64,000 bases of DNA from Bacillota bacterium. GTDB lineage: Bacteria > Bacillota > Clostridia > Oscillospirales > CAG-382. The stretch is taken from the NCBI GenBank assembly GCA_029550965.1, contig JAKPGJ010000014.1:1-64000 (forward strand), in the 5' to 3' direction. Made by a program: the position numbers and the translations under genes. Positions 10,146 to 56,948 of this stretch are shown one piece after another. The notes beneath the pieces are model-generated. The model was not told the DNA's origin. It ran no database searches and saw nothing but the letters and a program-made list of their open reading frames with translations. The number at the start of each line of letters is the position of its first letter. Within the stretch, counting starts at the first letter, position 1.

Positions 10146-12683
10146 ATGAAACGATCTGTTAAGCTTTTGTCGGCCGTTATCGTGCTGTCTTTGCTTATCA
10201 GCCTGGCACCGATTCCGGTCTCCGCTTACGGCGCTGAAGACGGAAAACTGGTTATTACGCATATAAACGACTTCGGCAAAGAAGGTTCCGGCGTCATATT
10301 TACGCCGACGCACGGGGACACGGTATTGGGCAAGCTGACGTATTGGGTAGTCGTAACGTTTGACTGGGACGAGAACGACAACTGTTTTAAGGTAACAAAG
10401 GTACAGGGCGAAACGGGCGACAAAGACCAAACCGAGATACCCAAAACCGGTTTTGTGTACGGCGTAAACGTCGGCAACAACTATCCGGATCTGTATGCGA
10501 AAACCGGAAATCCTGCTTATGCGGGCAAGCCGAACTACGTAAACGATAGAACCTCGAAATCGTATCAGTTTGCAAAATCGCTTACGGTGGGTACGAAAGC
10601 GTACCTGTATAATGTAAACATTAAAAGCGACGTCATCGACGTTTCGGGTTCCGTATGGTACTCGGATTCGTTTATCACAAACTCCTACATAAAAATCGGC
10701 ACGCCTGACCCGACAGGCACGCCGTACGATCCGAACAACGCGGAAGAAATTCTGGCTCAGCAGACGCTCGGTCTGACACACATCAACACCGCCACCTATA
10801 CGACCGGCATGTCGAAAATTTTTACCAGAAGCTTTGGAAGCAACATTGTTAAATCAACGGGCGAGTACCAGTGGTGGAGAGTCGCCATTTTCGATTGGGA
10901 CGATCAGGACGGCTGTTACAAGGTAATCGGCGTCGACACGCTGGTAGGCAACAACTACTCGAAATACGCGATGATTCCCGAAAACGGCTTCGTCGTCGCG
11001 GCGATTACCGGCAACTCTGTTTCTGAAGGCGCGTATAACGCGATTGCGAACGTAAAGGTCGGCAATAAAGCCTACCTCTACGGCGTGGACGTTGCGGCGG
11101 GAACCATGAGCGAAGGCGCGAAAGTCACCATCAATCTGCCGGACGAATCGCTCACGCCTTATACGCCCACTATAACCAACAGACTTGCTCCGCCGGTACT
11201 GACCAACATGACAGGAAGAACCGTTACGACGAAAGACGGATTTACGGTTGAGTGGTCGGCGGTTGACGGCGCCACCGGATATGTTGTGAACATCAACAAA
11301 TCCACCCTCTCCCAAAACGGTCCGTTTATCGTTGAGAACGAAACCGTAACCGGCACGTCCTATACCATCGGCGAAGGTGTGTTAGAGGTTGCGAACAATT
11401 ATACGGTTTCGGTTTACGCGGTCGGAACCGACAGGTCCGCGAGCATGGTGGCAAGGGCAAAACTGTATGTCGTCAGCGACGAAGCGGCGTCCAGCAGCCT
11501 GAGCACAAAGAGAATCGTCGCGTACGGCGACAGCTTGACGGCAAGAAACACCTGGGTGAACATCCTTGCCGGAAGATTTGGTGCGGAACTGATTAATGCC
11601 GGCGTCGGCGGAAACACTTCCACGCAGGGAAGAGCCAGAATAAAGAGAGATGTGCTTGACTACAATCCCGACATCGTACTCATCAACTTCGGCATGAACG
11701 ATCAGGCGGTTGTCAACGGCGAGCCCTTAACCTCTATTGAAAAATATACCGAAAACCTTGAGTATTTCGCGCAGACGCTGATCGGAGCGGGCGCCGACGT
11801 TATATTCGTGACGCCGAACAAGGTCTGCACGGCGCAGGGATATCACAATCCCGGACCCGGCAAACTGAATTACGGCACCGACAGCATGCTTGCGTTCTGC
11901 GAAGCGATGCGAAAAGTCGCTATGAAATACGGCTGTGGGCTTGTCGATATAAACCAGGAATGCAGCTATGAAGACCTTACGAAATTCTGCGCTTCGGGCG
12001 ACGGCGTACACCAGTCTGAATACGGACACCAGAAGTATGCGGAGTACATCGGCAATTACCTTGCCGCGGTTTACGATAATAAGAATCTGACCTCCGTAGA
12101 GGTTAAGTTTGAGGACGCAGCCGGAAACAGCCTTGCCGAACCGGTAACCATGCAGGGCGCGGTCGGCGCGAGAGTGCTGATTCCGGGACTGGAGATCGAC
12201 GGCTATCTCCTTGTTTCCTCCCCGGTCGATTACCAGTTTGCCGACACGCCGGGCAGCGTCACCCTGACGTATGCGCCGATCGGCATTGAGCTTAAGGAAA
12301 GCAGCGCATTTGTCATAGAGGACAATAACCTCTATATCAACGTCGAGCTGTTAACGGTCGAAGGCTTGTTAAGCCAGGTCAAAACCTCCGGCGTAGCCTG
12401 CACGCTCAGTTCGGGCAGTTACGTCGGAACCGGAAGCAAGCTGCAGCTCAAGTCGGGCTCGGAAGTATTAAGCGAACTGACCGTCATTCTGCTTGGCGAC
12501 GTGGACGGCGACGGCGAGATCAGCTCGTTCGATTATCTCAAGGTGAAAAGATACATTCTGGGCAACGATACGCTGGAGGGCGTGTATCTGAGCGCCGCCA
12601 ATACCGATCAGGACGACGTTATCGATTCTGTAGATTACCTGAATATCAAACGGCACATTGTCGGCTCGAAACCGTTGTTCTAA
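10146..12683 (+). CDS. Secreted SGNH/GDSL hydrolase with type I dockerin
   Basis: An 845-residue multidomain extracellular protein. A signal peptide occupies residues 1-27 (cleavage near VSAYG). Two related ~130-residue modules follow (about 30-195 and 200-340). Both carry THIN, FDWD..D.C.KV and VG.KAYLY. A fibronectin type III-like domain spans about 345-445. The SGNH esterase follows: GDSL with the nucleophile Ser near 462, then GGNTS, NFGMND, and GDGVHQSEYGH with the Asp/His pair near 620. Next is a MucBP-like beta domain (~650-715). The C-terminus is a type I dockerin with two calcium loops (DVDGDGEISSFD, NTDQDDVIDSVD). It is probably a carbohydrate deacetylase or esterase that docks onto a cohesin scaffold. 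No cohesin is present in this window. Confidence 0.88.
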   Translation: MKRSVKLLSAVIVLSLLISLAPIPVSAYGAEDGKLVITHINDFGKEGSGVIFTPTHGDTVLGKLTYWVVVTFDWDENDNCFKVTKVQGETGDKDQTEIPKTGFVYGVNVGNNYPDLYAKTGNPAYAGKPNYVNDRTSKSYQFAKSLTVGTKAYLYNVNIKSDVIDVSGSVWYSDSFITNSYIKIGTPDPTGTPYDPNNAEEILAQQTLGLTHINTATYTTGMSKIFTRSFGSNIVKSTGEYQWWRVAIFDWDDQDGCYKVIGVDTLVGNNYSKYAMIPENGFVVAAITGNSVSEGAYNAIANVKVGNKAYLYGVDVAAGTMSEGAKVTINLPDESLTPYTPTITNRLAPPVLTNMTGRTVTTKDGFTVEWSAVDGATGYVVNINKSTLSQNGPFIVENETVTGTSYTIGEGVLEVANNYTVSVYAVGTDRSASMVARAKLYVVSDEAASSSLSTKRIVAYGDSLTARNTWVNILAGRFGAELINAGVGGNTSTQGRARIKRDVLDYNPDIVLINFGMNDQAVVNGEPLTSIEKYTENLEYFAQTLIGAGADVIFVTPNKVCTAQGYHNPGPGKLNYGTDSMLAFCEAMRKVAMKYGCGLVDINQECSYEDLTKFCASGDGVHQSEYGHQKYAEYIGNYLAAVYDNKNLTSVEVKFEDAAGNSLAEPVTMQGAVGARVLIPGLEIDGYLLVSSPVDYQFADTPGSVTLTYAPIGIELKESSAFVIEDNNLYINVELLTVEGLLSQVKTSGVACTLSSGSYVGTGSKLQLKSGSEVLSELTVILLGDVDGDGEISSFDYLKVKRYILGNDTLEGVYLSAANTDQDDVIDSVDYLNIKRHIVGSKPLF

Positions 12684-25466: not shown

Positions 25467-26206
25467 TGATTCCGCTCCTTTATAAATAAGGCGAGATATT
25501 CTTGGTTTCCGTCCGCTCCGGTGATCGGAGAGGGCATAAACGATTTTCTAAAGAGCCCGCAGTCTGCGGCGCTTTTTGTCAGGTTTTCCATTATCTTTTC
25601 TATCAGCTTTCCGCTTTTGTCCTTGACGATGCCGTTTTTCCCGATATATTCTCTGCCCGCTTCAAACTGGGGTTTTATCAGCGAAATCAGCTTTCCGCCG
25701 TCTGCCAGAATATCGGAAACGGCGGGGTATATTTTGCTCTGCGAGATGAACGAAACGTCCATGACCGCAAGGGTGATTTCTTCTTGAAAATCCTTTTTCG
25801 TCAGCGTTCGGGCGTTTGTGTTTTCCATATTGACGACGCGCGGATCGTTTTTCAGGCTCGGGTGCAGCTGACCGCTTCCGACGTCGACCGCGTACACCTT
25901 TTTAGCGCCGCGCTCCAAAAGGCACTGCGTAAAACCGCCGGTCGACGCGCCGATGTCCACCGCCGTTTCGCCGGCAGGGTTCACGCCGAACCCGTCCAGC
26001 GCGGCGTTGAGCTTGCGGTAGGCTCTGGAGACGAAGGCGCCGCCTTTTAGAACCGCAATCTCCGCGTCCTCGTCGGCGGGGAAGGCGGCTTTTTGGACAA
26101 TTACGCCGTTTACGCTTACGCGTCCTTCCGCAATCGCGGCGGCCGCTTTGCTGCGGCTCTCAAAATAACCTTTTTGGTACAGAAGCGTGTCAAGACGGAT
26201 TTTCAT
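25463..26206 (-). CDS. tlyA: TlyA family rRNA (cytidine-2'-O)-methyltransferase
   Basis: A 247-residue protein. The N-terminal S4 RNA-binding domain is RLDTLLYQKGYFESRSKAAA. A Rossmann methyltransferase fold follows, with the SAM motif VDIGASTGGFTQCLL and the AVDVG strand. Homologues methylate 16S/23S rRNA; Firmicutes members are often of unproven specificity. I choose the ATG at 26206 by homology. It lies inside the last codons of dxs and has no clear Shine-Dalgarno at normal spacing, so it is probably translationally coupled. A TTG at 26224 is an alternative. Confidence 0.9.
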   Translation of the reverse strand: MKIRLDTLLYQKGYFESRSKAAAAIAEGRVSVNGVIVQKAAFPADEDAEIAVLKGGAFVSRAYRKLNAALDGFGVNPAGETAVDIGASTGGFTQCLLERGAKKVYAVDVGSGQLHPSLKNDPRVVNMENTNARTLTKKDFQEEITLAVMDVSFISQSKIYPAVSDILADGGKLISLIKPQFEAGREYIGKNGIVKDKSGKLIEKIMENLTKSAADCGLFRKSFMPSPITGADGNQEYLALFIKERNQ

Positions 26207-28064
26207 TTTGCAAGAACAATTCAATCTCCGCCGCGATTTGCTCGGGCAGGAAGCCTAAATCCCGATATAAAAGCTCGCCGTTTCCGTGCGCGACGAACTG
26301 ATCCTCGATCGCTCTGATTTTTACTTTTCGATTGAACAGATAGCCCTGTTCGGCGAACGCGGAAATTACGCTTTCCGAAACACCGCCGGACTTGACGCCC
26401 TCTTCCAAAAGATAAATATATCCGGTGTTTCCGGTAAGCTCGTTTAATTTTTCAAATTCTATCGGCTTTATTTTTACAAGTTTGATAACCCTTGTCTGTA
26501 TGCCTTTTTGATACAGCTCCGCCGCCGCGAGCAGCGCGTTTTTGGTTATTTTTCCGTACGTGATGATCGAAACTTCGGGCCGCGCGCCGAAATCGCAGAG
26601 ATACATGCCGTCCGCGGGCTTAAATATGCTTCGGTCGTATTCTTCCGGCGAATTCTTGGGGTATCGCACGATGACCGGGCGGGCTGCTTTGAATGCCTGT
26701 TCAAAGGCATAGTCCATATCCGCGAAGCACTCGGGCGCGTAAATCTCGGTCTCCGGCGTGCTGTTTACAATCGCCACGTCAAAAATGCCGTGGTGCGTCG
26801 GGCCGTCGTTCGGAACCAGCCCCGCGTGGCTCAATGCGAGAATCACGGGCAGTTTCTGCAATGCGGCGTCGTGCACCAGCTGGTCGTACGCGCGCTGAAA
26901 GAAGGTGGAGTAAACCGCGAACACCGGCTTTTTCCCCTGCGAGGCAAGCCCGGCAGCGAAGGTCAGCGCGTGCTCCTCCGCGATGCCGACGTCGAAAAAG
27001 CGGTCCGGGAAATGCTGCGCGAAACCGCTCAGGCCGGTTCCGGCGCACATGGCGGCGGTGATGGCGCAGATATCCTCGTCCCGTTTTCCGGCTTTAACCA
27101 TAATTTCGCCGAAATACTCGGAAAAGGTTTTCGTATGCCCATTCTTTATCTCGCCGGTTTCGATGTCAAAGCCGCCGACCGAATGGTACAGGTCCGGCTT
27201 TTCCTCGGCAAAGGAATAGCCTTTTCCCTTTTTGGTGCAGATGTGAACCACGCTGCATTTGTTTTCCCGTTTCGCTTCGTTGAGAACCAGCTCGATTTGC
27301 CGCTCGTTGTTGCCGTCCACCGGGCCGTAATAGTTCAGCCCCATGACCTCAAAGAAGTTCTCGCTGACCAGCAGCCGTTTGATGCGGTTCTTCGCTTTTC
27401 GCGTAATTTTGATAAGGCCTTCCCCAATCAAGGGAGTGGCGGAGAAAAAGCGCTTGATAAAGTGCTTGAGCTTGAAATACCGCGGAGAAATGCGGAAACG
27501 CCTGAAGTAGCGGCTGATGCCGCCCACGTTCGGCGATATCGACATTTCGTTGTCGTTCAGAATGATAATGAGATGGTCCTTGTCGGCGCAGTTGTTCAGC
27601 GCCTCGTAAATCATGCCGCCGGTGAACGCTCCGTCGCCCACGACCGCGATGGTGTAGTCGTTCTTTCCGGCGAGCTTGTTCGCCGCCGCGATGCCGACGG
27701 CCGCGGAAATCGAGGTGGAACTGTGTCCGGAGCCGAACGGGTCGTGCTCGCTCTCGTCGCGCTTGGTAAAACCCGAAAGCCCTCCGTACTGACGGAGGGT
27801 GTCGAAACGGTCTTTTCTGCCGGTCAGGAGCTTGTGTATGTAGCTTTGATGACCGACGTCCCATATGATTTTGTCGTCAGGCGAGTTAAAAACGCGGTGC
27901 AGAGCGACTGTCAGCTCCACAACGCCCAGATTGGATGCGAGATGACCGCCCGTCCTGGCGACGGTTCGAATAACGGTATCCCTGAGCTCGCCGATTAAAA
28001 TATCAACTTCAGGCTGTGTAAGATTTTTTATATCCTGTGGAGAACGAATATTTTCCAGTATCAA
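26190..28064 (-). CDS. dxs: 1-deoxy-D-xylulose-5-phosphate synthase
   Basis: A 624-residue thiamine-diphosphate enzyme that condenses pyruvate and glyceraldehyde 3-phosphate to DXP, the entry to the MEP isoprenoid pathway. N-terminal signatures are GGHLASNLGVVELTVALH and the ThDP motif GDGAFTGGMIYEALNNC. The pyrimidine-binding domain has GIAEEHALTFAAGLA. The operon also encodes IspA, so the first and a late step of prenyl synthesis are linked. It follows oapA by 16 bp. Confidence 0.97.
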   Translation of the reverse strand: MILENIRSPQDIKNLTQPEVDILIGELRDTVIRTVARTGGHLASNLGVVELTVALHRVFNSPDDKIIWDVGHQSYIHKLLTGRKDRFDTLRQYGGLSGFTKRDESEHDPFGSGHSSTSISAAVGIAAANKLAGKNDYTIAVVGDGAFTGGMIYEALNNCADKDHLIIILNDNEMSISPNVGGISRYFRRFRISPRYFKLKHFIKRFFSATPLIGEGLIKITRKAKNRIKRLLVSENFFEVMGLNYYGPVDGNNERQIELVLNEAKRENKCSVVHICTKKGKGYSFAEEKPDLYHSVGGFDIETGEIKNGHTKTFSEYFGEIMVKAGKRDEDICAITAAMCAGTGLSGFAQHFPDRFFDVGIAEEHALTFAAGLASQGKKPVFAVYSTFFQRAYDQLVHDAALQKLPVILALSHAGLVPNDGPTHHGIFDVAIVNSTPETEIYAPECFADMDYAFEQAFKAARPVIVRYPKNSPEEYDRSIFKPADGMYLCDFGARPEVSIITYGKITKNALLAAAELYQKGIQTRVIKLVKIKPIEFEKLNELTGNTGYIYLLEEGVKSGGVSESVISAFAEQGYLFNRKVKIRAIEDQFVAHGNGELLYRDLGFLPEQIAAEIELFLQNENPS

Positions 28065-28080
28065 ATACTTGTCATCCTAA

Positions 28081-28686
28081 CTATTTTTTAAATCCGCACA
28101 TTACTTTCGCGGTGTAAAGCACGATTTTCTCGCTGTGTTTCACAGCGATCAGCTTGCCGATGGCTTTGAATCCGACCATCATTGCTGAAATCAGCGAAGT
28201 CATCATCAAGGTCAGCCAGACTTCGCTTGCCATTCCGTCAAAAAGCCGTGCCGCAATCGCAGTGCCGGTCGCGCCGCTCATAACGCCGCAGATATCTCCG
28301 ACAAGGTCGTTGCAGAAAGAGCCGACCTTCTCGGCGTTTGATATCAGCCAAACGGCTTTTTTACCGGTTACCATACGGCGGGCTGCCATGGAGTTGAAAG
28401 GCTTGATGTCCGCCACGGCGACCGCAAGCCCGACCGCGTCGAAAATGATGCCCGTAAATATAAAAAACAGCAATACCGGTATCGCGATTGCCATGTCCAA
28501 AGTTGAAACAACGACGTCGGAGCCGAGCGAAAGTACAGCCGTTATGCAGAAAGACAAAGCAAACGCTGTGATAATCCAGCGTTTCTGTGCCTTTTTTCTT
28601 AAATATTCTTTTCTGTTTCCGTTTTTTCCTTTGTGGTTGTTGTTCGATTCAAAGGTTTTACTTCGAGGTGGGTCTGTTTTGTCCAT
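28081..28686 (-). CDS. oapA: OLE RNA-associated protein OapA (small membrane protein)
   Basis: A 201-residue protein. It has a highly charged, basic N-terminus of about 35 residues (KTFESNNNHKGKNGNRKEYL) and four hydrophobic segments: IITAFALSFCITAVLSL, IPVLLFFIFTGIIFDAVGLA, MSGATGTAIAARLF and the region from LTLMMTSLISAMMVGF. A DxxxD motif (DLVGD) sits before the third. OLE-associated protein A has this size and topology and a conserved DxxxD motif, and it carries OLE RNA to the membrane as a dimer. The family is often auto-annotated as a CorB-like metal transporter. Adjacency to the OLE-like RNA and to dxs and ispA makes the assignment strong. AAAGGA precedes the ATG. Confidence 0.88.
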   Translation of the reverse strand: MDKTDPPRSKTFESNNNHKGKNGNRKEYLRKKAQKRWIITAFALSFCITAVLSLGSDVVVSTLDMAIAIPVLLFFIFTGIIFDAVGLAVAVADIKPFNSMAARRMVTGKKAVWLISNAEKVGSFCNDLVGDICGVMSGATGTAIAARLFDGMASEVWLTLMMTSLISAMMVGFKAIGKLIAVKHSEKIVLYTAKVMCGFKK

Positions 28687-28722
28687 AGTAATCCTTTTAT
28701 CTTTTTAAGTCTATAATGCTTC

Positions 28723-28767
28723 TTTTGAAAACGAATAAAAAACGCTGTTTTTTATTCATTTTCAAAA
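28723..28767 (-). other. Long A/U-rich hairpin between OLE RNA and oapA
   Basis: Bases 28723-28743 pair with 28747-28767 over 21 bp with one T-G type mismatch and a three-base loop. It begins exactly where the OLE terminal stem ends. The arms contain T runs but no outer U tract follows. It could act as an attenuating terminator, a processing site, or a 3' stabiliser of the RNA. Confidence 0.7.
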
Positions 28768-29387
28768 TTCAGATGGCGACACAACACGTAAACTTTGCGG
28801 CTTACGGTCAAGTAGGTTTTCCCCAGCAGCTACTCCTTGTCGCCAATGGAGCGGTTTCCCTTTAAAGCCGCAGACGGTATGTTACCATATCCGTGACTTG
28901 ATTGCCTTTCAGTCCGCACTGCAATCCGTATTGTGCCTGGGATCTCAGCCTAGGAGTTTTCCTCAATAACTCTTTTAACGTTGTCTAGTCCTCTTTTGCA
29001 GTTATGATTTCAAGAGGAGATATTCCCGGATGAGTTAGCTACGCTCAGCCGGTATGACCTCTATCCGCCATAACCACTCAAGGCAGGCTACAACTATCCA
29101 CAGCACGATGTATCGTACCGCGCGATAGGTTTAATCCTTAAACCGTAGCCGATGTGAGCGGCGAAATCTGCCGCGTCAGCCACTCAACCACGAGAATAAG
29201 GCCTCAAGAGGAGAGTGGGTCCGACACCGCATGCCATTGCGGGCAGCCCACAATCCCATTCTTCCAGCACCCACCCTATACTGGGCGTATAAAGCAAGCA
29301 CAAGAAGCTTCATCGATTTGCCTTTACGCGTATTTTTAGGCACGCTTTCGACAACGATGAGTTAACTAGGATACTGCGCCATCTGAA
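28768..29387 (-). ncRNA. ole: OLE RNA (ornate, large, extremophilic RNA)
   Basis: A segment of 620 bp without a credible gene, between ispA and oapA. Its ends are perfect complements: 28768-28778 pairs with 29377-29387 over 11 bp. Inner stems are visible, for example GCGG/CCGC around an AAAGGGAAA-type loop near 28850. OLE RNAs are about 610 nt, close with a long-range terminal pairing, and lie directly upstream of oapA in the isoprenoid/DNA-repair operon of Firmicutes. All three hold here. A dedicated promoter lies just upstream. In Bacillus halodurans the OLE ribonucleoprotein localises to the membrane and affects responses to cold, alcohol, Mg2+ and carbon source. I cannot run the covariance model, so the call rests on length, ends and context. 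Confidence 0.88.
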
Positions 29388-29399
29388 ATGATTGACTTT

Positions 29400-29428
29400 A
29401 TATTATCATAAATTTTTCAAAAAATCAA
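29400..29428 (-). promoter_or_regulatory. Putative promoter of the OLE RNA
   Basis: Minus-strand TTGATT (29428-29423) and TAATAT (29405-29400) with 17 bp spacing. A start about seven bases downstream would begin transcription just before the terminal stem at 29387. This would allow OLE RNA and distal genes to be made separately from the nusB promoter. Confidence 0.55.
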
Positions 29429-29460
29429 ATGTATTTGCATGAATGTATAAAAATACATAA

Positions 29461-30351
29461 TCAGGAACTTCTTGCTAACAGTATATCGCACAGTTCTTTC
29501 AGACGTTCGGCGGGTTCCGGATTGCGAAAACCGTCCAGAACGCATTTCGCTTTTTCGGTCAGTTCGGAAGTGAGCGCTTTTGCTTTTTCCATGCCGAGCA
29601 GGGAAACGTAAGTGGATTTTCCGCTCGATGCGTCTTTTCCGACGCTTTTGCCGAGCGTTTCCGCGTCGCTCTCGCAATCCAGGATGTCGTCCTTGATTTG
29701 GAACGCTACGCCCAAATACCTGCCGAAATCAACCGCTTTTTGAACGCTTTCCTCGTCCGCGCCGGCGGCGACGCAGCCTAAAACGCAGGAACAGGAGATT
29801 AAAGCGGCGGTTTTTTTCAGCACCAGGTCGTCCAGCACTTCGCGGGGAACGGCGGCCTTTTCGCTTTGGATGTCAATCTGCTGACCGCCCATCATGCCGT
29901 CCGTCCCGCCGTAAAAAGCGAGCGCTTTGACGGCTTTCAGGTTTTGCGCGTCACTGCAGTTCGGGTTGTTCGCGGCGGCCGAGAACGCCTCGCAAAGCAA
30001 AGCATCGCCGGCAAGAATCGCGGTCGCTTCGCCGAACACCACATGGTTGGTCGGTTTTCCGCGCCGCAAAACGTCGTTGTCCATCGCCGGCAGGTCGTCG
30101 TGGATTAACGACATGGTGTGCAGCATCTCAACAGCAGCCGCGTACCAAAGCGCGTATTCCGCTTTTCCGCCGTTCAAAACGCAAAATTCCGTTACAAGAT
30201 ACGGGCGGATTCTTTTGCCGCCGGCGAGCGCGGAATAATGCATCGCTTCGTACAGCTTGGCGTGATAAATGCCCTGTTTGGGCGTTAAGAGCCTGTCCAG
30301 CAGCGCGCCGGTTTGGTCGGCTGCCTGCTTCATGGCTTCCTTGAGCGTCAT
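29461..30351 (-). CDS. ispA: Polyprenyl synthetase (farnesyl/geranyl diphosphate synthase)
   Basis: A 296-residue trans-prenyltransferase. The first Asp-rich motif is LIHDDLPAMDND (DDxxxxD, the bacterial short-chain type) and the second is FQIKDDILD. It makes C15 (or C10-C20) prenyl diphosphates from IPP and DMAPP. It lies 51 bp downstream of xseB, and the OLE RNA follows directly. The length and the residues before the first motif fit farnesyl diphosphate synthase. Confidence 0.95.
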   Translation of the reverse strand: MTLKEAMKQAADQTGALLDRLLTPKQGIYHAKLYEAMHYSALAGGKRIRPYLVTEFCVLNGGKAEYALWYAAAVEMLHTMSLIHDDLPAMDNDVLRRGKPTNHVVFGEATAILAGDALLCEAFSAAANNPNCSDAQNLKAVKALAFYGGTDGMMGGQQIDIQSEKAAVPREVLDDLVLKKTAALISCSCVLGCVAAGADEESVQKAVDFGRYLGVAFQIKDDILDCESDAETLGKSVGKDASSGKSTYVSLLGMEKAKALTSELTEKAKCVLDGFRNPEPAERLKELCDILLARSS

Positions 30352-30402: not shown

Positions 30403-30651
30403 TCAGGCGCGCATTTGAGGATTAAAATCCTCCTCGACCATTTCGCCGTTTTTCTCGGTCAGAATTTTTACCTTCTGCTCCGCGGCGTCGATTTTTTCGC
30501 TGCAGAAGCGCACCAGCTTGGTTCCCTCTTCAAAAAGCGCGAGCGAATTGTCGAGCGGAACGTTGCCTTCCTCCAGCGAACGCACGATTTTCTCAAGCCT
30601 TGCAAGCGCTTCCTCAAAGGTAAGAACTTCGGCTTTCTTTTCGTTATCCAT
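30403..30651 (-). CDS. xseB: Exodeoxyribonuclease VII small subunit
   Basis: An 82-residue helical protein with the family core TFEEALARLEKIVRSLEEGN followed by PLDNSLALFEEGTKLVRFC. It partners with XseA in degrading single-stranded DNA. I choose the ATG at 30651 because GGAG lies seven bases upstream. The ATG two codons earlier (30657) is only one base from that GGAG. Confidence 0.95.
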   Translation of the reverse strand: MDNEKKAEVLTFEEALARLEKIVRSLEEGNVPLDNSLALFEEGTKLVRFCSEKIDAAEQKVKILTEKNGEMVEEDFNPQMRA

Positions 30652-30674
30652 ATTCATTCTCCAAACGCTGTTAT

Positions 30675-31955
30675 TTACGAATTTACATTTATCTCGAATT
30701 TATCTACGGTTTGCGCCCGAACGACGCCGTCGCGGAAGCGAAGGTCGAAGCGTTCTCCCGCCGCCACGTCGGACGCGTTTTTAATAACCGTTCCGTCCAG
30801 CCGGAACGCCGCCGAATAACCCCTTTCCAGCACGCTCAACGGGTTCAGGCTCAGCAGCTTCTCGCTTTGCAGTTTCAGCTTTTGCGAAGCGCGCTCGAGG
30901 ATTATGTTCTCAATGCGGGATAAGCGGTCCGCAAGGTCGTTTACGTTCTTCCGCATTGCCGGAAAATCAAAGACGCCGTACAGTTTTTCCTCCAGCCTTG
31001 CGAGGTTCATCCGCTTGTCGTCAAAGGACGCGAGCGGGTTCTGCAGAACCGGCCGGTCAGCGAGCAGCTTTAACTGCCTGCGCAGGTTCTCAATCTGCCT
31101 TTTTAAAAGGGAGCTTAGCCTTGCCTGCACGTTCTCGAACTTTATTTTCAGCTCGTTCGCGTCGGGGACCGCGATTTCCGCGGCGGCAGACGGCGTCGGC
31201 GCGCGTCTGTCCGCGACGAAGTCCGCGATGGTAAAGTCAATCTCGTGCCCGACCGCCGAGATAACCGGCGTTTCGCAGGCGAAAATCGCTCTTGCAAGAG
31301 ATTCGTTGTTGAAGGCCCACAGGTCCTCGATCGAACCGCCGCCCCTGCCGATGATGATGACGTCGGCAAGTTTGCGCTCGTCCATGTATTTGAGTGCTTT
31401 GATCAGCTGGGCGGGCGCTTCGGCGCCCTGCACGAGCGAAGGGTAAATGATAATCTTCGCCGCCGGGAAACGCCTGCCGGTGACGTTGATCATGTCCCGC
31501 ACCGCGGCGCCGGTCGGAGCGGTGATGATGCCGATCCGAAACGGAATTTTAGGCAGCGGCTTTTTGTGCTCGGGCGCGAAAAGCCCCTCCGCTTCGAGCT
31601 TGGCTTTCAGCTGTTCGAACGCGATGTACAAAGAACCGATTCCGTCCGGCTCCATGCTGTCGATGTAGAGCTGGTAGACGCCGTCGCGGAGAAAAACCGA
31701 GATGCGTCCGCGGCAGATGACGCGCATGCCGTCCGCCGGGCGGAATTTGAGCTTGGTCGCGCCGCCGAACATCACCGCTTTCAGACAGGATTCCTCGTCC
31801 TTGAGCGTGCAGTAGATATGCCCCGAACCCGGGTAAATCTTCAGGTTCGACAGCTCGCCCCGGACATAGAGGTTCCTGAGCGTGGGGAGATTGTCAAGGT
31901 AATCCTTTATGAAGTTGTTGACCTGAGATACCGTCAAGCTTCTTTGTTCGTTCAT
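30675..31955 (-). CDS. xseA: Exodeoxyribonuclease VII large subunit
   Basis: A 426-residue subunit. The N-terminal OB fold contains LYVRGELSNLKIYPGSGHIYCTLKD. The catalytic region has GTAAVRD-type (here TGAAVRDMINV), IIGRGGGSIEDLWAFN and SAVGHEIDFTIADFVADRRAPTPSAAAE. A long coiled coil and C-terminal tail follow. It overlaps nusB by four bases. Confidence 0.97.
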   Translation of the reverse strand: MNEQRSLTVSQVNNFIKDYLDNLPTLRNLYVRGELSNLKIYPGSGHIYCTLKDEESCLKAVMFGGATKLKFRPADGMRVICRGRISVFLRDGVYQLYIDSMEPDGIGSLYIAFEQLKAKLEAEGLFAPEHKKPLPKIPFRIGIITAPTGAAVRDMINVTGRRFPAAKIIIYPSLVQGAEAPAQLIKALKYMDERKLADVIIIGRGGGSIEDLWAFNNESLARAIFACETPVISAVGHEIDFTIADFVADRRAPTPSAAAEIAVPDANELKIKFENVQARLSSLLKRQIENLRRQLKLLADRPVLQNPLASFDDKRMNLARLEEKLYGVFDFPAMRKNVNDLADRLSRIENIILERASQKLKLQSEKLLSLNPLSVLERGYSAAFRLDGTVIKNASDVAAGERFDLRFRDGVVRAQTVDKFEINVNS

Positions 31956-32344
31956 GCGTTCGCAATCTTTCCGAGTATGCCGTTTACAAAGCCGACCGCT
32001 TTTTCCTCGTCGTACTTTTTGGTCAGCTCCAGCGCCTCGTTAATGGATATTTCCATGCCGATTTCCGGCTTATAGAGCAGTTCATACGCGCCAAGCCGCA
32101 GCACGGCAAGCGTGACCTTGCCGATGCGTTCAATCCGCCAGTTCTCCGCGGCCGCGGCTATTTTTTCATCCAGCTCCGCAAGATGGGAGCACACCCCGAG
32201 AAAAAGCTCCTTTGCAAACCCGCTCAAGTTCTCCTCGCGCTCGTTTATCGCGTTTTCAATGATCTCTTCGGGGGTTTTTTCGGCGTTGAAGCCGTACTCA
32301 TATATCAGACAGAGAGCCTTTTCCCTCGCTTCTCTACGTGTCAT
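31952..32344 (-). CDS. nusB: Transcription antitermination factor NusB
   Basis: A 130-residue all-helical protein that binds boxA RNA in rRNA antitermination. It has an N-terminal RREAREKALCLIYEYGF and the C-terminal signature LGAYELLYKPEIGMEISINE followed by AVGFVNGILGKIA. It is the first gene of the superoperon, about 70 bp from its promoter. Confidence 0.96.
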   Translation of the reverse strand: MTRREAREKALCLIYEYGFNAEKTPEEIIENAINEREENLSGFAKELFLGVCSHLAELDEKIAAAAENWRIERIGKVTLAVLRLGAYELLYKPEIGMEISINEALELTKKYDEEKAVGFVNGILGKIANA

Positions 32345-55841: not shown

Positions 55842-56948
55842 ATGAAAAAGATTATTTCAATCTTGATTGTGCTGGTGATGGCGGCTACGGTTTTCATAAT
55901 GCCTACATCAGCAGCGAAAACGAACGCGGCTGTAACATTTGAGTATCTTGCCAAAGCGCCCGTAATCGACGGTGTGGTAAAATCCGGCGAGTACAAAAAG
56001 ATTCATTCTGTTGATTATTCAAAAGATGAGTTTATCGATGCTTACGACAAAGACAGAAGCATTAAAGCGGATTTTTATGCCGGATGCGATAAGGAATACC
56101 TCTATATGGCTTGGGTAGTACATACGGATATCAACAAGTTTATGGACCCCAACAAAGACTATGACGGCAAAAACGACGGCTTTACAGATAATGACCTTCA
56201 CTGGATGTGGATGTATTCCTGTGTACAGTTTATTATCACGCCCGGCGCTCCCCAGAACGGCAAAACAAAGTATCAGACAAGCCAATACTCCGGCAACTAT
56301 CTTGAAGTAGGTCTTGCAATTGTCGGCAGCGAGAGCAAAAAGACAGCATGGAGCATCCCGACGGGCGCTCCGGGACTCAAACCGGATGACTGGGATTTTG
56401 CAGGACTTCGCGACGAAAAAGCAAAGACAACTACATACGAAGTCAGAATACCGTGGAACAAATCCGGTATTTTGAAGGTCGGAAACGGGGCCCAGTTCGG
56501 TCTTACATATGCAATCGGCGATCAGGAAGACTTTAATGTTCAAAACAATATGTGCGAGTGGCAGGATGGAATCCTCGGCTCCAAGAACGCAGATGCCGGC
56601 GCTGTTATTACATTGAAAGGTTTCCCCGACAATAACGTGATTGAAATCTCCTATGCTACATCATCTGCCGCATCATCTGCCGCATCATCTGCCGCATCTT
56701 CAGCCGCATCTTCTGTAACTTCGGCTACAACATCAACCGAATCCAGCAAGGTTTCTTCCTCGGCTTCCGCCACATCCTCTAAACCCGCTTCTTCCGCTCC
56801 GTCCGCTTCAAAAACGGACTCAAGCTCACAAGCACCTGAAGAAGATAACAATTCACTACTTATTTGGATAATCGTTATTGCGGTTGTCGTAATTGGCGGC
56901 GGCGTCGCAGCTTACTTCATAATCTCAAAGAATAAGAAGCAGCAGTAA
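55842..56948 (+). CDS. Membrane-anchored extracellular CBM9/DOMON-like protein
   Basis: A 368-residue protein. Signal peptide 1-24. Residues ~30-268 form a beta-sandwich module with the APVIDGVVKSGEY opening and aromatic-rich DNDLHWMWMYSCVQF, like carbohydrate-binding family 9 and DOMON-like domains. A Ser/Ala/Thr-rich linker (~272-330) with repeated ASSA units follows. One membrane helix (LLIWIIVIAVVVIGGG) and a short basic tail (KNKKQQ) end the protein. It is probably a surface glycan or heme binder. No LPxTG is present, so anchoring is by the helix. A good promoter and ribosome binding site suggest high expression. Confidence 0.8.
   Translation: MKKIISILIVLVMAATVFIMPTSAAKTNAAVTFEYLAKAPVIDGVVKSGEYKKIHSVDYSKDEFIDAYDKDRSIKADFYAGCDKEYLYMAWVVHTDINKFMDPNKDYDGKNDGFTDNDLHWMWMYSCVQFIITPGAPQNGKTKYQTSQYSGNYLEVGLAIVGSESKKTAWSIPTGAPGLKPDDWDFAGLRDEKAKTTTYEVRIPWNKSGILKVGNGAQFGLTYAIGDQEDFNVQNNMCEWQDGILGSKNADAGAVITLKGFPDNNVIEISYATSSAASSAASSAASSAASSVTSATTSTESSKVSSSASATSSKPASSAPSASKTDSSSQAPEEDNNSLLIWIIVIAVVVIGGGVAAYFIISKNKKQQ
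56659..56715 (+). repeat. In-frame 12-bp tandem repeat in the linker
   Basis: Four to five units of gccgcatcatct and variants encode Ala-Ser-Ser-Ala units in the surface protein linker. Being a multiple of three, copy-number change would alter linker length without a frameshift. Confidence 0.85.

Follow-up and report, generated by a model that had tools for sequence, protein, structure and literature searches.

What occupies the stretch between ispA and oapA on contig JAKPGJ010000014.1 of an uncultured member of the Clostridia (GCA_029550965.1; Bacillota; Clostridia; Oscillospirales; CAG-382), and what does it do for its host? The window analysed here comprises positions 1-64,000 of that contig (64,000 nucleotides), and the original prediction, made from the letters of this DNA, had placed an OLE RNA and its partner protein OapA in it. 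OLE is among the largest conserved bacterial RNAs and among the least understood. The host's family mixes OLE-bearing and OLE-less species, which makes it a useful comparative setting. Because almost every OLE-less species has the Mg2+ exporter MpfA instead, these close relatives form a natural experiment, and they allow the proposal, already in the literature, that OLE/OapA and MpfA do overlapping work to be tested at close phylogenetic range rather than phylum-wide.

A full-length OLE RNA between ispA and oapA

A covariance model scan with the Rfam OLE family (RF01071, gathering cut-off 50 bits) gave a minus-strand match of 414.8 bits that covers the model from end to end, and the same scan found no other Rfam family at this locus (Table 1). 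All 20 dinucleotide shuffles of the OLE strand folded less well than the strand itself (z -5.5), and the genome scan returned a single OLE copy. We regard it as virtually certain that the RNA encoded by the minus strand of the gap between ispA and oapA is a full-length OLE, in an uncultured host of anaerobe type among the Clostridia, as had been predicted. The predicted 620-bp space agrees with the length of the RNA, about 620-640, but the gap itself is 774 bp long (28687-29460). No gene was found in it, again as predicted, the sole open reading frame inside being one of 61 aa on the plus strand, antisense to OLE. Lying just ahead of oapA and dxs and sharing their strand, the structure could instead be a different element, for example a riboswitch or long leader of oapA/dxs, or else a protein-coding stretch, or it could fold by chance; this is nevertheless exceedingly improbable in view of the end-to-end match to RF01071 as the only family there (2e-118), the shortness and antisense orientation of the interior reading frame, and the joint presence or absence of OLE and oapA as a cassette, with dxs remaining (see below).

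Table 1. Positions of the OLE RNA, its elements and the neighbouring genes in the window.
Feature	Position	Strand	Evidence
OLE RNA, RF01071 full-length match	28757..29398	-	414.8 bits, E 2e-118, model 1-616/616
P1 5' arm, TTCAGATGGCG	29377..29387	-	sequence; comparison with relatives
P1 3' arm, CGCCATCTGAA	28768..28778	-	sequence; comparison with relatives
P3/P3.1 5' strand	29349..29365	-	13-bp duplex with 28966-28986; own partner pairs better than foreign
P3/P3.1 3' strand	28966..28986	-	duplex with 29349-29365
Loop L4, A-rich (CCUAAAAAU); bridge B1 between the dimer halves in the published cryo-EM structure	29332..29340	-	motif in 51/51 OLE loci
L9.3 self-complementary loop UAGCUA, AGCU variant of symmetric kissing loop B3	29036..29041	-	sequence comparison
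Candidate OLE promoter (TTGATT, 17 nt, TG-a-TAATAT)	29400..29428	-	by position
21-bp A/U-rich hairpin after P1, putative 3' boundary or terminator-like element	28723..28767	-	fold z -3.6
oapA, 201-aa membrane protein	28081..28686	-	homologue in 25/25 OLE+ and 0/35 OLE- relatives; predicted CNNM-like fold
OapA DxxxD motif (DLVGD, residues 127-131)	28294..28308	-	D127, D131 invariant
dxs, downstream neighbour	26190..28043	-	TIGR00204
ispA (farnesyl diphosphate synthase), upstream neighbour	29461..30351	-	NF045485 over cut-off
xseB, xseA, nusB, remainder of conserved cluster	30403..32344	-	profile matches

The terminal helix P1 is the perfect 11-bp pairing that had been foreseen, Watson-Crick throughout, and the ends first given for the element, 28768 and 29387, are the exact outer ends of this helix. 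P1 was kept with many compensating changes in all 24 related OLE RNAs, where it usually measures 6-9 bp, so that the last 4 bp are private to the window; its 11 bp make it the longest of the 25. One related OLE RNA (L013, genome G037) has long complementary extensions outside P1 (GATGGCGGCGCATTTT.../...AAAATGCGCCGCCATC), and its oapA lies on another contig. The RNA had also been credited with its own promoter, which is plausible. The OLE loci of many relatives have a good TATAAT 6-7 nt ahead of P1. The best candidate of the window (TTGATT, 17 nt, TGaTAATAT), chosen by position, sits about 10 bases further upstream and was not listed by the consensus promoter scan. Such a promoter would add the 5' bases that lengthen P1. 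The hairpin directly 3' of P1, the sequence of which showed no conservation in the relatives, may be a 3' boundary or a terminator-like element.

The P3/P3.1 helix has been proposed to cross the membrane (PMC12265935). It has 13 bp in the window and a median of 15 across 38 sequences, one of which is a partial extraction, and its pairing is supported by covariation: strands from the same genome paired with a mean of -16.8 kcal/mol as compared to -10.8 kcal/mol for strands from different genomes, and in a permutation test 0 of 500 permutations came as low as the matched strands. By cryo-EM, OLE is a dimer with A-A pairs in L4, contacts between L5, L6 and L7, and a self-complementary L9.3 loop that varies among GGCC, GAUC and AGCU across OLEs (PMC12286853). 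Simple motif searches recovered the L4, L5 and L6 motifs in each of 51 OLE loci. At L9.3 most OLEs of the host order have a GGCC-based loop; the window shares UAGCUA with its nearest relatives. Judged as sequence motifs, the dimer contacts (L4, L5/L6, L9.3) appear intact in the window. Palindromes at L9.3 were counted in 30 of 44 cases against a shuffle mean of 14.5, but this count is inflated by the stem on either side of the loop, which forms an inverted repeat of its own, and we therefore set the count aside as proof. A k-turn pattern, too narrow as used, matched 15 of the 51 loci.

In the H. halodurans OLE, the bS21 site in P6 contains a perfect anti-Shine-Dalgarno mimic, and mutants without the mimic still bind, making it dispensable (PMC12054373). 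As a trait of the window's lineage the mimic was rejected, since CCUCC occurs in P6 of just 2 of 51 OLEs of the host order; it is missing in the window. This near-absence is in line with the binding of the published mutants.

OapA, the partner genes and the host

The partner protein with a DxxxD motif was found as expected. OapA has a basic N-terminus and the motif DLVGD, in which both aspartates, D127 and D131, are invariant in an alignment of 22 homologues (31-70% identity to OapA), as are F82, D83, G86, V121, C125, G130, S137, G138, K174, A175 and K178. Homologues stand beside OLE in the relatives. No other membrane family emerged for this gene, and its original assignment to OapA holds. 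The NCBIfam search gave no meaningful model, the PDB sequence search found nothing, and Pfam CNNM matched weakly (21.4 bits, below the cut-off of 28.4), a similarity already published for OapA (PMC11332333). When the AlphaFold model (pLDDT 86.6) was searched with Foldseek, six chains of CNNM/CorC/CorB Mg2+ transporters were returned at probability 1.00 and nothing else comparable. Their TM-scores reached 0.63, and their E-values were weak (6.5e-3 to 0.14). OapA is accordingly predicted to be a membrane protein with a CNNM-like fold. Proteins of the MpfA type combine a CNNM domain that exceeds the Pfam cut-off with CBS and CorC domains behind it; OapA, with 201 aa in all and 21.4 bits, is not one of them. 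One genome (G041) encodes a second OapA homologue, C94, in addition to C41, which lies beside OLE.

The isoprenoid/DNA-repair setting proposed for the locus was borne out, in that ispA, xseBA, nusB and dxs surround OLE-oapA as a conserved cluster. Genes for all partners were found in the window's genome. The OapB homologue is a 91-aa KOW protein encoded between map and infA, which matched PDB 7k9b, 'OLE-associated protein B' (1.8e-9). Genes for bS21 and Spo0A are also present. An L7Ae-family protein is encoded between rpoC and rpsL, which we take to be the gene position of YbxF, and this position is consistent with an OapC-like (YbxF/OapC) protein. According to published figures, OapB occurs in about 60% and OapC in about 45% of OLE hosts, and neither is strictly required. 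Since full-length OLE, OapA, OapB, the OapC-like protein and bS21 co-occur, the genome apparently encodes a complete OLE RNP of the known kind, which is probably functional. The opposite reading, a decaying OLE remnant without function, could draw on the species-specific insertion in one hairpin (P8 region) and on the odd promoter spacing, but with all model positions covered, P1 the longest of 25, P3 paired, the dimer loops apparently intact, oapA open with its invariant motifs and the partners present, we consider decay very improbable.

The predicted dockerin was confirmed in a separate gene of the window (10146-12680, plus strand), whose product is a GDSL lipase that also carries MucBP and, at its C-terminus, a type I dockerin domain; the host therefore makes dockerin-bearing secreted enzymes. 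The window also encodes a 23S rRNA intervening-sequence protein (PF05635; 17712-18059, minus strand) and a protein whose C-terminal part weakly resembles the mobile-element protein CD1107-like family (55842-56945, plus strand).

OLE, OapA and MpfA among the relatives

The locus had been thought to extend the range of OLE, known mainly from extremophiles, to an anaerobic Clostridia-type host. This view fails, because OLE has been published from 2,822 Bacillota genomes, anaerobes included (PMC11332333), and one third of the sampled genomes of the host order carry it (66 of 197). Non-extreme anaerobic Clostridia are among the published hosts, and OLE hosts have been described as 'extremophiles and/or anaerobes' (PMC12054373). 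That OLE goes with OapA and is anticorrelated with MpfA is likewise already published across Bacillota (PMC11332333, PMC12054373). The OLE of the window is an ordinary member of a known family and nothing new in kind; the new detail is the fine-grained distribution of OLE, OapA and MpfA within one order.

Among 60 relatives, OLE was found in 25 and OapA in exactly the same 25, none of the 35 OLE-less relatives having a homologue. When MpfA was scored by its CNNM domain alone, as a strong CNNM protein of mostly 420-520 aa (MpfA-like), it was present in 32 of the 35 OLE-less relatives, the remaining three being incomplete genomes, and in one of the 25 OLE-bearing ones (G008); no MpfA was found in the window's genome. 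The 197 genomes sampled from the order, each at least 90% complete, showed the same opposition: MpfA was present in 11 and lacking in 55 of the 66 OLE-bearing genomes, and present in 124 and lacking in 7 of the 131 OLE-less ones (Fisher p 1e-29, a test that ignores kinship). On an rpoB tree the OLE and MpfA labels need 10 changes each, and of 10 independent pairs nine were opposite and none the same (p 0.004); well-supported branches alone gave five independent pairs (p 0.06). Two genomes of one genus, G014 and G023, differ in their OLE/MpfA state. OLE and MpfA thus nearly exclude each other in the host order, and the exclusion is not absolute because 11 OLE-bearing genomes also carry MpfA.

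Family f13 (G068, G105, G126, G136, G145, G162, G180, G185, G190) supplies nine of these 11 genomes; in no other clade are OLE and MpfA commonly found together. Two further genomes, G101 (f2) and G174 (f13), showed a weak OapA-like CNNM match and no MpfA, and the filtered scan gave no OLE match there; it either overlooked OLE, or OapA stands alone.

Four OLE-less genomes (G003, G011, G012, G022) have the order xseA-xseB-ispA-dxs with no oapA between, ispA and dxs being about 100 bp apart in G003 and about 70 bp in G012. A replacement of oapA by MpfA in place was rejected, as nothing sits in these four junctions. OLE and oapA come and go together as a cassette and dxs stays behind.

Proposed role and comparison with known systems

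Taken together, our results are best explained by a full-length OLE with OapA in the usual isoprenoid/DNA-repair cluster, doing a job that overlaps with that of MpfA, and we hold this explanation as a whole to be highly probable; the overlap with the Mg2+ exporter, taken by itself, is moderately likely. The OLE RNA would be transcribed alone or with the operon, fold into the known two-domain structure and, as in other species, dimerise via L4 (A-A), L5/L6 and the self-complementary L9.3 (UAGCUA). OapA, as a CNNM-like membrane protein, would anchor the RNA, with a membrane location as suggested by other species, and OapB, OapC and bS21 may bind it, judging from published work on other species. 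The job of the RNP would most likely be divalent-metal and membrane stress tolerance, again by analogy with other species, and the RNA may make up for OapA's missing regulatory domains.

Possibly, OLE RNA with OapA can be exchanged for the all-protein exporter MpfA and vice versa, OLE-oapA behaving as a two-gene cassette, and lineages of the host order would then have switched about 10 times, down to species within one genus. We put this forward tentatively; in some MpfA-bearing relatives ispA and dxs follow each other with the cassette cleanly missing. If true, the OLE RNA would take the functional place that the CBS/CorC domains have in the Mg2+ exporter. Alternatively, global stress regulation ('bTOR') could be the chief role of OLE/OapA, and the near-exclusion of MpfA could be a by-product of lineage or life style. 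The many non-Mg2+ phenotypes of published knock-outs (PMC12265935, PMC10898510), the 11 genomes that hold both systems and the small number of well-supported independent swaps point that way, but swaps between near relatives, even inside one genus (G014/G023), and the CNNM-like fold predicted for OapA speak against it, and we find this alternative possible but rather doubtful. A rescue of OLE-deletion phenotypes by MpfA expression is mentioned as unpublished by the Breaker group (PMC12265935).

The OLE RNP of the window can be set beside the known systems as follows. Like the full-length type of the OLE family (RF01071; Fernando & Breaker 2024, PMC11332333), the OLE of the window fills all model positions, shares P1, P3/P3.1, the other model helices and the conserved loops, and adjoins oapA within the ispA/xse/nusB/dxs cluster. 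It differs in its P1 of 11 bp instead of 6-9 bp, the private 21-bp hairpin that follows, a 22-nt insertion in the P7/P8 region and UAGCUA instead of GGCC in L9.3, and, unlike the H. halodurans OLE, it is without the P6 CCUCC mimic. OapA resembles its family in its length of about 200 aa, membrane helices, DxxxD motif and basic N-terminus, in adjoining OLE and in its weak CNNM similarity. The MpfA/CorC/CorB proteins (CNNM + CBS + CorC, Mg2+ export) occur where OLE/OapA is missing, and although OapA is too short for CBS + CorC and has the DxxxD motif, it shares with them the CNNM-like transmembrane fold that the model predicts.
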